This document shows positions 40,150 through 47,198 of a stretch of 53,787 bases of DNA, in pieces. The stretch covers positions 1 to 53,787 of the forward strand of contig JAAYCJ010000267.1 of assembly GCA_012729815.1 (NCBI GenBank). The letters are read 5' to 3'. Within the stretch, counting starts at the first letter, position 1. Each line of letters opens with the position of its first letter. The position numbers and the translations under genes were made by a program. This DNA is from Phycisphaerae bacterium (GTDB lineage: Bacteria; Planctomycetota; Phycisphaerae; JAAYCJ01). The notes beneath the pieces are model-generated. The model was not told the origin of the DNA and did not search any database. It worked only from the letters and a program-made list of their open reading frames with translations.

Positions 40150-41913
40150 ATGAAGCTTGACCCGACGGTGATGAAGGACTGGCAGATCGCGGAGACCGCT
40201 GAGGAGCGGATCAAGGGGATCGAGCAGCTCGCCGAGGAGACGGGGCTGTCCGGCGACGAACTGATCCCCATGGGCCGCAACCTGGCCAAGGTGGATTACA
40301 TGAAGGTGCTCGAACGGCTGGGCGAGCGGCCTTCGGCGCGGTACGTCGACGTGACCGCGATCACGCCGACGCCGTTGGGCGAGGGCAAGACGACGACCAC
40401 GATCGGGCTGGTCCAGGGTCTCGGCAAATTGGGCAAGAAGGTGGTAGGCGCGATCCGCCAGCCCAGCGGCGGGCCGACGTTCAATATCAAGGGCTCAGCG
40501 GCGGGCGGCGGGCTCTCGCAGTGCATCCCGCTCACGCCGTTTTCGATCCGCCTGACCGGCGATATCGACTCGGTGACCAACGCCCACAACCTGGCGATGG
40601 TGGCGTTGACCTCGCGGATGCAGCACGAACAGAATTACGACGACGCGCGGCTGGCCAAGAGCGGCCTAAAGCGTCTCGATATCGACCCGAACCGGGTGGG
40701 CATGAAGTGGGCGATCGACTTCTGCGCCCAGGCCCTGCGCAACATCACCATCGGCAAGGGCGGCAAGATGGACGGGCTGGAAATGGAATCGGGATTCCAG
40801 ATCTCGGTCTCCAGCGAGGTCATGGCGATTCTGGCCGTCTCGAAGAACCTGGCCGACATGCGCGAGCGGATGGGTAAAATCGTGGTGGCCCACAGCCGCC
40901 AAGGCAAGGAGGTCACCGCCGGCGATCTGGAGGTGGACGGGGCGATGACGGCGTGGATGGCCGACGCGATCAACCCGAACCTGCTGCAGACGATCGAAGG
41001 CCAGCCCGTGTTCGTCCACGCCGGGCCGTTCGCCAACATCGCGATCGGGCAAAGCTCGATTATCGCCGACGAGTTGGGCGTCAAGCTGGGCGAGTATCAC
41101 GTGACCGAAAGCGGCTTCGGAGCGGACATCGGGTTCGAAAAGTTCTGGAACCTCAAGTGCCGCATGTCGGGCCTTCGGCCGAACGCGGTGGTAATCGTGG
41201 CCACCATCCGGGCCCTGAAGATGCATGGCGGCGGGCCGACGGTCAAGCCGGGCATTCCGCTTGACGAGGTCTACAGGACCGAAAACCTGGAGCTGCTGGA
41301 AAAAGGCTGCGAAAACCTGATCGCGCACATCGAGACGGTCCGCAAGAGCGGCGTGCGTCCGGTGGTGTGCATCAACAGCTTCTATACCGATACCACGGCG
41401 GAGATCGCGCTGGTCCGCAGGATCGCCGAGGGGCACGGGGCGTTCGCCGCGGTTTCGGAGCACTGGCTGCGAGGCGGCGAAGGGGCGCGGGAACTGGCGG
41501 AGGCGGTGATCGCCGCGGCCGAGGAGAGGAACGGCTTCAAGTTCCTCTACGAGCTTGAGACGCCGCTTCGCCAGCGCATCGAGTTGATCGCCAAAGAGGT
41601 CTACGGGGCCAAGGGCGTGACGTATTCCGATCAGGCGCTGGAGAAGGCCAAGGCGTTCGAGGCCGACCCGGCGTCGCGGAAGCTGGGCACCTGCATGGTC
41701 AAGACGCACCTGTCGCTCTCGCACGATCCGGACATCAAGGGCCGGCCGCGGGATTGGGAGCTGCCGATCCGCGACATCCTGGTCTACCACGGCGCGGGTT
41801 TCGTCGTGCCGGTGGCGGGCGATATCAAGCTGATGCCGGGCACAGCGTCGGACCCGGCGTTCCGGCACATCGACGTGGACGTCAAGACGGGCAAGGTGCA
41901 GGGGCTGTTCTAG
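40150..41913 (+). CDS. fhs: Formate-tetrahydrofolate ligase
   Basis: Makes 10-formyl-tetrahydrofolate from formate and ATP; it enters one-carbon metabolism and the methyl branch of acetogenesis. [17 protein letters not shown] is the P-loop (about 75-91), [23 protein letters not shown] follows, and the C-terminal part contains [14 protein letters not shown] and [14 protein letters not shown]. Length is 587 residues against about 555 usual, with the extra length in the N-terminus and C-terminus. No other acetogenic gene is in the window, so a role in serine or purine metabolism is as likely. Confidence 0.96.
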
Positions 41914-41978: not shown

Positions 41979-42413
41979 TCAGTGGGAGTGGGCGTGGGCG
42001 TGAAGCTGCTTGCCGGTGGTGCCGGCGGCGAGTTCGGCGTGCAGGACCCCCTTCTCACGGGCCATGCGGTCGGCCAGCGACCTGATCTCGTGGGCCTTGC
42101 CGCGGACCATGATCATCTCGGCGCAGAGGTGTTCGTCGAGGTGAACATGGGTGGTGGCCAGGACCTTGCCGGCAAACTGGTGCTGTTGAGCGGTGAGGCG
42201 TTCGGTCAGGCCGCGGGCGTGATGGTCGTAGATCAGGGAGATCGTGCCGATCAGGACCTGGTCGCGGTCCCACTCCTGCTCGACGATCCGGTGGCGGATC
42301 AGATCGCGGACGAACTCCGAGCGGTTGCCGTACTGGCTCTGCGAGGTGAGCTTCTCCAAGCGGTCGAAGAGCGGTTTTTCGAGCGAGACGGTAAAGCGGA
42401 CCACGTCGGACAT
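41979..42413 (-). CDS. nikR: Nickel-responsive regulator NikR
   Basis: A ribbon-helix-helix regulator that represses or activates nickel genes when it binds Ni(II). The N-terminal strand and helices are VVRFTVSLEKPLFDRLEKL and GNRSEFVRDLIRHRI. The ACT-like C-terminal domain carries the full square-planar nickel set: His78, His89, His91 and Cys97, matching His76, His87, His89 and Cys95 of the E. coli protein. A His-rich tail ends the protein. ATG 42413 with AAAGGAG at a good distance is preferred to an upstream GTG/ATG at 42452. It is divergent from the PEP-CTERM operon, sharing a 237-base control region. Length is 144 residues. Confidence 0.93.
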   Translation of the reverse strand: MSDVVRFTVSLEKPLFDRLEKLTSQSQYGNRSEFVRDLIRHRIVEQEWDRDQVLIGTISLIYDHHARGLTERLTAQQHQFAGKVLATTHVHLDEHLCAEMIMVRGKAHEIRSLADRMAREKGVLHAELAAGTTGKQLHAHAHSH

Positions 42414-42525
42414 GGCAACTCCTTTCGACGGCGACGGGCTTCGATCCCACAAGCCATTTTAGAGCAAGGGATTGCGCACTTCCAGAGGGGCGGCGTTTTT
42501 TTCCGGAAGATCGCGGAGAACGGAC

Positions 42526-42554
42526 TTTACAGGCCGGGCGGCCCCTGGTAATAT
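42526..42554 (+). promoter_or_regulatory. Promoter of the PEP-CTERM/TroA-like operon
   Basis: TTTACA at 42526-42531, a 17-base spacer, TAATAT at 42549-42554, divergent from nikR. Transcription would start near 42561, within the inverted repeat 42557-42590. Confidence 0.65.
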
Positions 42555-42556
42555 TT

Positions 42557-42590
42557 CGGCTACGTTCGTAATACTGCGGCGGCGTAGCCG
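42557..42590 (+). promoter_or_regulatory. 34-bp inverted repeat over the start site, possible NikR operator
   Basis: Perfect 8-base arms CGGCTACG (42557-42564) and CGTAGCCG (42583-42590), 18 bases apart, just after the -10 box. The size and spacing resemble a NikR site (two six-base half-sites 16 bases apart), though the half-site sequence differs from the GTATGA of E. coli. As an RNA it could also form a hairpin. Confidence 0.45.
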
Positions 42591-42650
42591 CGGGGTTCGG
42601 GCGGGAAGGTACTCGGCCTTCGCAAGGGTCCAACCGAGAGGGAGAGAGAC

Positions 42651-43640
42651 ATGAGACGGGCAACTGGGATTCTGATGTGCGCGTGCCTGGCCGGCCTGCC
42701 GTCGATTGCAGCGGCGGAGACTCATTGGGACCTCCAGGCGACGGATTCGATGGGCGCCTCGACATGGAGCGGCTCGCATCCGTTCGTGCTGACGGGCACC
42801 ATCCTGAACAACCCCGAGGACATGCTGGACGCAACGGCAAATTTCGTGCCGTGGGACGGTGGTGCAGGCCAGGGCCAGATGGGTGGGGAATGGCAGCTCT
42901 TCATTCAGGCCGACGAGACAGGCGACCGAGGCGGAACCGCGCTGTGGATGGGGCAGAACTATGGCAACCTGCCGTGGAATCACAGCAGCGATCTTGGTTA
43001 CAGCAACACGGCATGGGAAGAAGAGATGCTGCGGCTGAACTACGACCCGGACACCGGCCATCGGTTCCGTCAGGGTGACCGGGTGACGGTGACGGCGAAC
43101 TACTCAGCGTTCTACGGCGGCAAGCGAAACGTCAACGAAGGCCACAGCAAGGACACGGGGATGAACTTCAGCGTCACTCTGCTGGAGGCGGGGGCGGGTC
43201 TGCCTGAGCCGGAGAGCATCGACTTGACGGACCTGTTGGCGGACACGAGCGGCGCGGGTTACGATCCGAACTTCCCCATGTTCGACGCCTCGCGGCAGAC
43301 CGGAGCCGAGCACTACCAGGGAGTGTATGTTCACCTGAGCAACCTGCTGATGGATGACAGTTCCGGTTGGGGGGGAACGGCGTGGGGCGAGCGGCTGTGC
43401 ACAGTCAAAGACGAAGCGGGAAACCTCCTGAACCTGCGGATGCCGCTGTACGATCTTGGCGAGGTTCCGACCGGGTCGTTCGACGCATTCGGAATCATCA
43501 ACCAGGAAAGCGGAATGGCGGAAGACGGACGCTTTGGCTATGAGTTGTTTGTGATGCAGATCACCCCGGAGCCGGCGTCGGCGCTCCTGCTGATTACGGG
43601 CGTCTTGGGATGGGTTGGAGCAAGGCGAAGGAACAAGTAG
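42651..43640 (+). CDS. Exported PEP-CTERM sorted protein
   Basis: A secreted protein that is probably anchored or processed by an exosortase. The N-terminus (MRRATGILMCACLAGLPSIAAA) is a Sec signal cut near AAA-ET. The C-terminus is the PEP-CTERM tag: TPEPASALLLI, a hydrophobic helix, then ARRRNK. The body is unknown, with WDLQATDS-like strands and many Asp, Asn and Gly. No exosortase is in the window. GAGAGGGAGAGAGAC precedes ATG 42651. Two bases after its stop comes the prepilin-like gene. Length is 329 residues. Confidence 0.88.
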   Translation: MRRATGILMCACLAGLPSIAAAETHWDLQATDSMGASTWSGSHPFVLTGTILNNPEDMLDATANFVPWDGGAGQGQMGGEWQLFIQADETGDRGGTALWMGQNYGNLPWNHSSDLGYSNTAWEEEMLRLNYDPDTGHRFRQGDRVTVTANYSAFYGGKRNVNEGHSKDTGMNFSVTLLEAGAGLPEPESIDLTDLLADTSGAGYDPNFPMFDASRQTGAEHYQGVYVHLSNLLMDDSSGWGGTAWGERLCTVKDEAGNLLNLRMPLYDLGEVPTGSFDAFGIINQESGMAEDGRFGYELFVMQITPEPASALLLITGVLGWVGARRRNK

Positions 43641-43642
43641 GT

Positions 43643-44284
43643 ATGGCAACACCGAGACGGGCCGCCTTCACGCTGCTGGAGCTTCTGGTGTCCGTGGCGG
43701 TGATGGCGGCCCTGTCGGCTTTGACATGCATGGCGGTCGGCAGCGCGCGGGAGCGGGCGCGGGCGATCAAGGTACACGCTGAGCTGTACGGGCTTGGCGT
43801 GGCGCTGGAGGCCTACGGGATAGACTGCGGCGGCTGCTTTCCGCCGGTGCGGGTCAACTGCAACAGCGATATGCAGGACCACTGGTGCCAGCTTCCGATG
43901 GAACTGGCGGACGGCCGATACATACCGCCGGGCCCTGGAGGCGGGCTGAGCGCGACGCTGGTGGACGAGTTCAATCCGGGCCATACGTACAAGTACGCCG
44001 CGCCCGGTCCGATGCTGCTGAACGGGACGCCAGCGGGGAATTACCAGGTGTGGATTCCCGATGACGTTCCACTCTGCGAGTCGGCGCAGGGACGCTACTA
44101 CTACAACCCGCAGACGACCCCGGTGCGCTGGATGGTCTGGAGCACCGGCCCACATCCGAAGAGCGAGAAGAGCTGCCACGAACGCGCGCCGATGGCGGCT
44201 GCCTCGTGGTACCGAGGGGCGGGCGACGAGGGCGTGCTCGTCCGCTTCCGCGACGCCCAGACGTGTCAGTTCAAGAGCCCGTAG
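43643..44284 (+). CDS. Prepilin-type cleavage/methylation protein
   Basis: A pseudopilin-like secreted protein. MATPRRAAFTLLELLVSVAVM carries the leader, Phe after the cut, Glu at +5 and the hydrophobic helix. The mature domain is Cys-rich for this class (CGGCFPPV, VNCN, HWCQLP, CESAQG, SCHE, QTCQ), which suggests disulfides or metal binding. It starts at ATG 43643, two bases after the PEP-CTERM gene, with AAGGAAC upstream. The TroA-like lipoprotein follows at once, so the three are one unit. Length is 213 residues. Confidence 0.88.
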   Translation: MATPRRAAFTLLELLVSVAVMAALSALTCMAVGSARERARAIKVHAELYGLGVALEAYGIDCGGCFPPVRVNCNSDMQDHWCQLPMELADGRYIPPGPGGGLSATLVDEFNPGHTYKYAAPGPMLLNGTPAGNYQVWIPDDVPLCESAQGRYYYNPQTTPVRWMVWSTGPHPKSEKSCHERAPMAAASWYRGAGDEGVLVRFRDAQTCQFKSP

Positions 44285-44291
44285 AGACAAG

Positions 44292-45155
44292 ATGATGGTG
44301 TCATTGAAACGCTTGTTGCTGGTGTTGGCGATCCCGACTCTGCTGGTGGACGGATGCGGGAAGGGCCGCGCGGAATCGGATCTGCCGACAGAGGTGGCTG
44401 CAACCAACTCATACCTGGAGTGCGTGGCGAGGGATCTGCTGGATGAAGGCGCGCCGGTAGTCCAGTTGAGCAGCCCCGGCATGTGTCCCGGGCATTTCGA
44501 CCTGAGTCCCAGCCAGGCCCAGCAGCTTCAGACCTCGCGGCTGCTGTTTCGGTTTGAGTTTCAGACCGCTTTGGACGCGCGGGTGAGCGATCTGGTGGAG
44601 GCGGGGCTTCGCATCTGTCCCGTTCGCGCGGAGGGCGGATTGTGTTGCCCTGCCACATACGCGGCTGCGTGCCGCCAGGCCGCCGACGCCCTGGTCAAGG
44701 CGGGCCTGCTGCCCGAGACGCGGGTGCAGCCGCGGCTGGAGCGGATCGCCCGGCGCATGGCTGAGCTGGAGCAGCGGTGTCGCCGCCAAATCCAAGACGC
44801 CGGTCTGGCCGGTCGGCCGGTGGTCTGCAGCGTGCATCAGGAGGCATTCTGCCGGTGGCTTGGGCTGGAGGTGGTCGGCACGTTCAAAGCCGCCGACGTC
44901 GAGGCCCTTGGCACAATGGCGAAGGTCATCGAGAACGGGCGTGACGGCGGCGCGTCGCTGGTGATCGCGAACCGCTCGGAGGGACGCCGTTTGGCCGACG
45001 GGGTCGGATCGTGGCTGGCGGCGGAGGTGGTCGTGTTCGGCAACTTTCCGGACTCCGCGATCGGCCAGCGAACGTTCGACGACTTGGTCGACGCCAACGT
45101 CGAGGCGCTGATCGCAGCAGCTGAACCGGCTGCTTCAACCCAGCCGGCGGAGTAG
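44292..45155 (+). CDS. TroA/ZnuA-like metal-binding lipoprotein, cysteine-rich
   Basis: Related to cluster A-I substrate-binding proteins for zinc or manganese. The N-terminus ends in LLVDGC, a lipobox. NSYLECVARDLL, the GHFDLSPSQAQQL strand with the metal His, the long central helix, and VVCSVHQEAFCRWLGLEVVGTF follow the TroA layout. It has some ten cysteines (for example ICPVRA, GGLCCPATY, AAACRQ), unlike usual zinc-binding relatives, where His ligands dominate, and lacks the His-rich loop. No permease or ATPase gene follows. Nearby NikR suggests nickel or another soft metal. Start at ATG 44292 or 44295. Length is 287 residues. Confidence 0.78.
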   Translation: MMVSLKRLLLVLAIPTLLVDGCGKGRAESDLPTEVAATNSYLECVARDLLDEGAPVVQLSSPGMCPGHFDLSPSQAQQLQTSRLLFRFEFQTALDARVSDLVEAGLRICPVRAEGGLCCPATYAAACRQAADALVKAGLLPETRVQPRLERIARRMAELEQRCRRQIQDAGLAGRPVVCSVHQEAFCRWLGLEVVGTFKAADVEALGTMAKVIENGRDGGASLVIANRSEGRRLADGVGSWLAAEVVVFGNFPDSAIGQRTFDDLVDANVEALIAAAEPAASTQPAE

Positions 45156-45302: not shown

Positions 45303-47198
45303 ATGAAACGAATCGGATTACTGATGGTCGCGGCGATGTTGGGCCTCAGCGGGCCCGTCCGGGCCGAGGCGCCTTCGGTGCTGCTGGAGAAGGCGATCTA
45401 CGCCGAGCAGACCGAGGGCAACCTGGACGATGCGATCCGGCTCTACGAGCAGGTCATCGCCGAAGCCGAGACCAACCGCCAGCACGCCGCTGAGGCGTAC
45501 TACCGGTTGGGCTCGTGCTACCTGCAGAAGGGCGAGAAGGAAAAGGCGGCCAGGACGCTGCGGGAACTGCTCGCCAAGTACTCGGATCAGCCCGGCCCAG
45601 CGGCCAAGGCGCGGCGAATGCTGGCCAAACTGCCGCCGGTCGGCGATCGACCGCTGGTGCTTGGCACCTCGCCGGAGGCGTTCGCCAATAACGTGTCACC
45701 CGATCTGGACAAGATCACGGTCACGTTCGACCGGCCGATGCAGGATGGAGGCTGGTCGTGGACGGGCGACGGCGAGACGTTTCCCAAAGCCACCGGCGGA
45801 CCCCGTTACGACAGCAGGAGAATGACCTGTGTGCTGCCGGTCAAGCTCGAACCCGGCAGGGTCTACTGGGTCGGCATCAACAGCCCGAGCCTTCGGAACT
45901 TCAGGAGCGAGAGCGGTCAACCGGTCTTGCCGTATGTCATCCTCTTCGCAACGGCAACGGCCGACGGCCAGCCCACAACCATTCCGGACGATCTGACGGC
46001 CGAGGCAGAGACAATCAATTCACAGGCAGGACCGCTGGCGACGTCCCAGCCGGCGACGCTTGAGCTTCAACCGGCGCCTTGGCCGAAGAGCGAGGTCATG
46101 CGCCTGAGGTTGGTCACGCCGGCGGGAATGGAAGTGGGCGAGCAGATTTGGACGGTGCAGGCGGACAAGGCGGACGACGTGGAGGCATGGCGGATCGAAT
46201 CCCGCATGACCATTCCGGTCAATAACGCGTGGCAATTCACGCAGGTGTTAACCCGGCAGGATACCTTCGCTCCGATCACCGGCGTGACGCGGCATCAGGG
46301 CGGCGAGTTTGATGCCCGGTACGGCAAGAACGCGGTCGAACTGACGACGACAATGAAGGACAACCTGACCAGCCGGACGATGGACATCGACCGGAAGGTG
46401 TTCGACAACGAGCAGGCGATCTACGTGATCCGCCGCATGCCGCTCGCCGAAGGCTACAACGGTTCGTTCTGGATCTTCCCGGTGCAGAGCAGCGTGGTGG
46501 TCGAATGCCGCATCAATGTGACGGGAAAGGAGACGATCAAGACGCCGGCGGGCGAGTTTGAGTGCTTTGCGCTAGAGCTGCGCGTGTTTGCCGGGAATAC
46601 TTGCGCGTTGACTCATCGGCTGTGGATATCGACGGACCAGCACAGGTACCTGGTCAAGTACGATGCGGACACGGTGGTCATGGAACTGGTCGAAGCCGGT
46701 CCGTGGGTAAAACAGCCGACGACGTACACCAATCGCGAAGTGGGCGCAGCGGTCACGGTTCCGACCGGCTGGTTCGTCTACGAGAACCAGACCCCTCTGC
46801 CGTACAAGTTCATGCTGTATCTGCTCTCGCCGGAGATGAAGGTCTGGTCGGTGCTGGCGGCGACGGAGTTGTCGTTGGCTGAGGCCACGCCCAAGGAGGT
46901 GGCCGACGGCGATATCCAGGTCCTTAAGGGCTACTTCAAGGGCTACACCGTTCGCGAGGGCAGTTGGGCCGACGTGACGGTGGCGGGCCGGCCGGCGATC
47001 CGCTTCGTCGCCGATTACCAAGACGACGGCCGGACGATGGTCGAGGAGCGGACCTACATTCTCGGCGAATCGATGGTATACTGGTTCGTGTTCCGAGTCG
47101 AAAAAGCACTCTTCGATCAGCACAAGCCGGTGTTCGAGAAGATCGTCAGCAGCTTGGACCTCAAGCCGGCAGCGGCCGCGACGCCAGACGGCCAGTGA
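45303..47198 (+). CDS. Exported TPR and Ig-like domain protein
   Basis: A periplasmic or surface protein of 631 residues. It has a Sec signal (MKRIGLLMVAAMLGLSGPVRAEA), then TPR repeats at 30-105 (GNLDDAIRLYEQVIAEA, AAEAYYRLGSCYLQKGEKEKAARTLRELL), then a SbsA-like Ig domain at about 118-210 (SPDLDKITVTFDRPM). The rest is beta-rich, with a DUF3108-like segment around KETIKTPAGEFECFALEL and a C-terminal domain. It is the first gene of the operon with the histidine kinase, 29 bases away, and may be the sensor's periplasmic partner or its target. Role inferred only from context. Confidence 0.82.
   Translation: MKRIGLLMVAAMLGLSGPVRAEAPSVLLEKAIYAEQTEGNLDDAIRLYEQVIAEAETNRQHAAEAYYRLGSCYLQKGEKEKAARTLRELLAKYSDQPGPAAKARRMLAKLPPVGDRPLVLGTSPEAFANNVSPDLDKITVTFDRPMQDGGWSWTGDGETFPKATGGPRYDSRRMTCVLPVKLEPGRVYWVGINSPSLRNFRSESGQPVLPYVILFATATADGQPTTIPDDLTAEAETINSQAGPLATSQPATLELQPAPWPKSEVMRLRLVTPAGMEVGEQIWTVQADKADDVEAWRIESRMTIPVNNAWQFTQVLTRQDTFAPITGVTRHQGGEFDARYGKNAVELTTTMKDNLTSRTMDIDRKVFDNEQAIYVIRRMPLAEGYNGSFWIFPVQSSVVVECRINVTGKETIKTPAGEFECFALELRVFAGNTCALTHRLWISTDQHRYLVKYDADTVVMELVEAGPWVKQPTTYTNREVGAAVTVPTGWFVYENQTPLPYKFMLYLLSPEMKVWSVLAATELSLAEATPKEVADGDIQVLKGYFKGYTVREGSWADVTVAGRPAIRFVADYQDDGRTMVEERTYILGESMVYWFVFRVEKALFDQHKPVFEKIVSSLDLKPAAAATPDGQ

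Follow-up and report, generated by a model that had tools for sequence, protein, structure and literature searches.

Bacteria take up nickel through members of the Nik/Opp, Nik/CbiMNQO, NiCoT, UreH and HupE families, and to our knowledge the import of scarce metals across the unusual planctomycete envelope is poorly understood. A 2009 survey that covers three planctomycete genomes lists no Ni/Co transporter for them (PMC2667541). Here, we describe a locus of a Phycisphaerae bacterium (Planctomycetota; JAAYCJ01), found in a 53,787 nt stretch of contig JAAYCJ010000267.1 (assembly GCA_012729815.1) that we refer to as the window. A gene for the nickel regulator NikR lies divergent from three plus-strand genes, separated by gaps of 2 and 7 bp, for the exported proteins PEPC (with a PEP-CTERM tail), PIL (a pseudopilin) and LIPO (a lipoprotein). 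Sequence comparison makes it likely that this is a NikR-repressed operon for the acquisition of a metal, most likely nickel, at the cell envelope; as read from its gene content, the window operon is a reduced copy that has lost its transporter.

A contig scan found 110 relatives of LIPO, of which the best 80 by LIPO similarity were kept (L012–L091, with genes called as mechanical open reading frames and by tblastn); since the loci were chosen in this way, the locus counts describe that set. Among 61 genomes of the bacterium's own and related groups, LIPO matched in 11. The relatives come mostly from metagenome-assembled genomes of Planctomycetota, with some from Sumerlaeota, KSB1, Verrucomicrobia, Nitrospiraceae, Poribacteria, WOR-3, Elusimicrobia and other groups. 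Their standard order is PEPC–PIL–LIPO–ATPase–permease, and the order NikR–PEPC–PIL–LIPO recurs, with 16 of the 80 named loci carrying a NikR gene. An earlier reading made from the letters of the window (the sequence-only reading) depended on the gene order being shared with related genomes, and this holds: PEPC and PIL precede LIPO on the same strand in 43 of the 51 close-clade loci with at least 2.6 kb upstream, the other eight being mainly of Pirellulales type. The same reading pointed out that no ATP-binding cassette (ABC) genes follow LIPO. This is true of the window, where tblastn found neither an ATPase nor a permease of the relatives' type and revealed no hidden ABC gene, but it is not the rule of the system: an ATPase gene follows LIPO in 65/66 loci with at least 1 kb downstream (the exception is L013), and ATPase and permease genes are both found in 60/62 loci with at least 2 kb (L013 has neither and the permease of L080 was not recognised). 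The co-encoded ATPase and permease of a ZnuABC-type importer are thus absent from the window and present in nearly all relatives, and the proposed difference from nik and znu operons, namely the lack of an ABC transporter, is not supported, because in nearly all relatives LIPO is directly followed by genes for an ATPase of ZnuC-like and a permease of ZnuB-like type. These resemble AztA/heme-type ATPases as well as ZnuC, and AztB/ZnuB, respectively, none scoring above an equivalog cut-off.

Three further genes accompany the cassette in relatives. In about 20 loci besides L040 (5788-6132 (-)), PEPC has a small cupin gene divergent from it, which sometimes lies between NikR and PEPC. In L026 (7212-7907 (-)) and 11 further loci an S-adenosylmethionine methyltransferase, possibly for chelator chemistry, is encoded divergently from the cassette or downstream of it, and a frequent linked gene encodes a His-rich membrane protein that matches DsbD_2 (L058:10547-11266 (+) and 12 further loci).

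The sole ABC-3 permease found in the genome of the window lies on contig C6, where an ATPase and a His-rich binding protein complete a ZnuABC-like set, and was rejected on this account as a LIPO-type permease. In the LIPO tree (in which L085, L086 and L083 form long branches of uncertain placement) the window and L013 are not sisters, L013 pairing instead with L015 (support 100/88), which has both transporter genes; transporter loss has therefore apparently happened twice. The window copy might be decaying, its three exported proteins left without a working uptake system after the loss of the ATPase and permease and persisting by chance. The absence of both genes, the assignment of the only ABC-3 permease to another set and the separate origin of a second solitary LIPO in L013 would fit such decay. 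We consider it improbable, given that all three reading frames are intact, the predicted promoter and NikR box are kept and the window LIPO retains C65, H68, D70, C118, H182 and E230; the solitary LIPO of L013 likewise retains the signature residues. It is also unlikely that nothing is truly missing and that the two transporter genes fall within the few percent of the genome left unassembled. The assembly is indeed a draft of 367 contigs with a completeness of 97.27%, but the contig runs on past LIPO into unrelated genes (a TPR/DUF3108 protein gene at 45303, then a histidine kinase gene) at an even G+C content (0.60–0.69 throughout 38–50 kb in 500-base steps), so at least the usual LIPO–ATPase adjacency has been lost. 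As a separate observation, a 107-residue RHH-like protein with two CxxC pairs is encoded before the ZnuABC-like set on C6 (L101:6278-6601 (+)) and is a possible zinc regulator.

Profile matches bear out three of the protein identities proposed in the sequence-only reading: an intact NikR with four nickel ligands, a PEP-CTERM protein and a TroA/ZnuA-like lipoprotein. NikR, which is single-copy in the genome, matches PF08753 (E 8e-28) and PF01402 above their cut-offs and scores 147 bits against a cut-off of 105 on the NCBIfam NikR equivalog PRK04460. Alignment to solved NikR chains located H78, H89, H91 and C97, whose numbers match those of the nickel ligands of Pyrococcus NikR, so that the RHH domain, the NikR_C domain and all four ligands (three His, one Cys) are present. 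The C-terminus of PEPC matches TIGR02595 (21.1 bits against 16), its match to PF07589 falling below the cut-off, and LIPO matches PF01297 (ZnuA) with 45.4 bits against a gathering score of 29. For PIL, described earlier as a Cys-rich prepilin-like protein, the prepilin part stands, with a class III prepilin N-terminus above the cut-offs of PF07963 and TIGR02532 followed by a long helix; the Cys-rich part does not, C73 being the single invariant Cys of the family.

In LIPO, C65, H68 and D70 of the GMCPGHFD stretch are kept in 85/86 rows, the remaining row being a gap, and C118, H182 and E230 in 71, 70 and 69 of the 76 close rows, respectively, with mostly substitutions in distant rows. Alignment to PsaA/MntC-type chains shows that the first-ligand region is altered relative to the Mn- and Zn-binding relatives. 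The canonical ligand sets of ZnuA/TroA cluster A-I proteins are HHED or HHH(D/E), with His-His-Glu-Asp in PsaA; sequence comparison finds C65, H68, C118, H182 and E230/N251 in their place, and by this comparison the Cys/His signature is non-canonical for the ZnuA/TroA family. The protein alignments used all 52 references for PEPC (A1), 45 of 81 for LIPO (A2) and 44 of 51 for PIL (A3), with L085, L078 and rows outside the set length limits left out.

The regions upstream of the relatives' cassettes yielded the pattern GTATTAC-N13-GTAATAC, perfect in L014, L015, L019 and L021 and at 13/14 in L024, L026 and L028. In a published study, the delta-proteobacterial NikR box is GTGTTAC-[N13/14]-GTAACAC and includes a GTaTTAC-[N13]-GTAACAC site (PMC545781). 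Promoters among the relatives thus carry 27–28 bp boxes of this type matching at up to 14/14, and that of the window one with 12/14. As the consensus was first seen among the same relatives and then matched to the published box, the shuffle value for the predicted window operator (its score was reached by 0/300 shuffles) is post hoc, and a scan of the window's own genome and a test of location in the relatives' loci serve as fairer controls. In the 5.47-Mb genome the predicted window operator is the best site and the only one with at most two mismatches; if three are allowed, the real pattern has 19 matches per strand and its reversed control 28, so only the two-mismatch site stands out. The relatives' loci (994,511 bases) contain 21 strong boxes (at least 13/14 to GTRTTAC-N13/14-GTAAYAC), 17 of them in the 500 bp before the first gene of a cassette, three immediately ahead of a TonB receptor gene preceding LIPO (L087, L090 and L091) and one elsewhere. 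For the predicted promoter TTTACA-N17-TAATAT two overlapping matches were found, against a mean of 0.1 per shuffle. No Rfam match that would indicate a riboswitch was found in the window or in four relatives.

The sequence-only reading had placed metal capture under nickel control and had pointed to a perfect 8-base inverted repeat over the predicted start of the operon. Control by NikR gains support, because the order NikR–PEPC–PIL–LIPO recurs and a box of published type is predicted in the shared promoter. The repeat exists, and the predicted operator overlaps it, but as an operator it was rejected: one as good occurred in 55/500 dinucleotide shuffles of the 237 bp intergenic region, and it was found once, in the window, and in none of the relatives' loci compared. 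It is probably incidental.

Several observations weigh against NikR repression of a nickel operon. The left half-site of the predicted window operator is degenerate and looks more like part of a direct repeat. Among 88 loci tallied for boxes (duplicate copies of named loci being left out here and in the conservation counts), 11 lack an upstream stretch; of the remaining 77, 20 have a box at 13–14/14 and eight, the window included, one at 12/14, while another motif, type B, is present in 35, the cupin group, and no motif of either kind in 14, of which two carry a NikR gene on the locus. Type B, GTARCACGAATTTnnTATTnTTATGCGC, overlies a TTGAC-N17-TATTnT promoter, is highly conserved and often occurs in tandem (for example in L045, L059, L062 and L064); it has 46 matches in the same 994,511 bases, 43 in cassette promoters and two more before PEPC of L030. 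Finally, no NiFe hydrogenase, urease, carbon monoxide dehydrogenase or CbiM was found in the genome of the window, so that nickel demand rests on its Lar proteins. The two LarA-like matches and LarC make a nickel need plausible, and the Lar cofactor is the probable route of any nickel use. A prismane match was rejected as a carbon monoxide dehydrogenase, being a hydroxylamine reductase.

The metal might also be zinc, manganese or cobalt, or a chelate, with the importer lying near NikR by happenstance. LIPO is related to ZnuA and PsaA, the ATPase and permease of relatives are ZnuC- and ZnuB-like and most cupin-group loci have no adjacent NikR. NikR-type boxes nevertheless occur at the cassette in several phyla, LIPO does not keep the PsaA-type ligand set, and NikR_C, found in 30/61 genomes, is present in all 11 with LIPO against 19/50 without it (one-sided Fisher p 1.3e-4, a guide only as the genomes are related); we therefore regard a metal other than nickel as doubtful. 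LarC was also tried as a correlate of LIPO (8/11 versus 27/50 genomes, not significant), and no common gene emerged beside the unlinked NikR copies of relatives in seven neighbours scanned.

Depending on the lineage, PEPC ends in a PEP-CTERM tail or in an EF-hand stretch of dockerin-like type, or has neither, so it is the core and not the anchor that is conserved. The predicted PEPC model (pLDDT 90) shows barrels like those of the oligonucleotide/oligosaccharide-binding (OB) fold. Foldseek gave nothing below E 0.001, with OB-fold proteins in the top rows, and VIA-align gave Z of about 10 over about 95 residues; this fold is common, and no function was read from it. A weak lead at rank 22 (E 0.033) is the DUF3299 protein PA4066, presumably zinc-regulated in Pseudomonas. 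Sequence matches to solved structures were mainly parvalbumins, aligned to the dockerin-like tail of relatives, and were set aside. The PIL model (pLDDT 93.5) has a pilin-like N-terminus; the best Foldseek match (FimA) is weak (E 1.3), with no confident fold for the C-terminal domain or the whole. In five distant loci (L081, L084, L087, L090 and L091) a TonB receptor gene directly precedes LIPO, in the place that PEPC and PIL occupy in planctomycetes, which suggests an envelope role for this pair. Judged by position and shared control together, PEPC and PIL may replace the receptor.

Under the proposed mechanism, Ni-NikR would bind the predicted operator over the -10 element when nickel is sufficient and switch the operon off; nickel scarcity would lead to production of PEPC, PIL and LIPO. 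The cell surface or the outer membrane would be the site of action of PEPC and PIL, and LIPO would bind a metal or metal chelate in its Cys/His site and hand it to an ABC-3 permease. As its own ATPase and permease are missing, the window LIPO would have to use the ZnuABC-type permease on C6 or merely capture metal. More tentatively, the cassettes may form an unnamed, multi-phylum class of NikR-controlled nickel importers (a GMCPGHFD lipoprotein with a ZnuBC-like transporter), in which a secreted OB-fold protein and a pseudopilin that together move nickel across or along the envelope replace the TonB step in Planctomycetota, and of which the capture layer in the window has outlived its own transporter. 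If true, this would extend the nickel uptake families named above by a transporter class. A conserved surface-type pair linked to a metal ABC importer by gene order and by an operator of NikR type is a direct, testable lead. The features of the locus are collected in the table. The adjoining formate-tetrahydrofolate ligase gene (40150-41913) also adjoins the cassette of a distant relative (L065, 4789-6555), which may be chance.

Features of the nikR–PEPC–PIL–LIPO locus (window coordinates)
Feature	Position	Strand	Description
nikR	41979..42413	-	144 aa, RHH + NikR_C; ligands H78, H89, H91, C97; His-rich C-terminal tail
Predicted sigma-70 promoter of exported-protein operon	42526..42554	+	TTTACA-N17-TAATAT; motif scan versus shuffles
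Predicted NikR operator	42548..42574		GTAATAT-N13-GTAATAC; 12/14 to GTATTAC-N13-GTAATAC; left half over -10
8-base inverted repeat	42557..42590 (arms 42557-42564/42583-42590)		CGGCTACG...CGTAGCCG; probably incidental
PEPC	42651..43640	+	329 aa, secreted; predicted OB-like folds; PEP-CTERM tail; conserved GKxNxNExH motif
PIL	43643..44284	+	213 aa pseudopilin; conserved C-terminal domain; one invariant Cys (C73)
LIPO	44292..45155	+	287 aa TroA/ZnuA-like substrate-binding lipoprotein; GMCPGHFD signature

No publication describing the operon was found in the literature searched, most subscription journals being outside its coverage. Among known systems, the cluster A-I importers ZnuABC and PsaABC (TroA) share with it a PF01297 lipoprotein and, in the relatives, an ATPase and ABC-3 permease directly downstream; the present system differs in having NikR in place of Zur or MntR control, PEPC and PIL as partners, and the Cys/His signature of LIPO in the usual first-ligand region, and the window in lacking transporter genes. 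PIL is like GspG-like pseudopilins in its class III signal and long N-terminal helix and unlike them in its C-terminal domain, which is conserved within the family and gave no confident fold match, and in being tied to a metal operon. With the NikR-controlled nikABCDE, nikMNQO and nikKMLQO operons the locus shares an upstream NikR box with a 13–14 base spacer (PMC545781), but its transporter class is unrelated and no Nik/Opp or energy-coupling factor components are present at the locus. The NikR-regulated TonB-dependent receptors FrpB4 and FecA3 find a parallel in the distant LIPOs encoded after a TonB receptor gene that has a NikR-type box (L087, L090 and L091), whereas planctomycete members have an OB-like PEP-CTERM/dockerin protein and a pseudopilin in that place.

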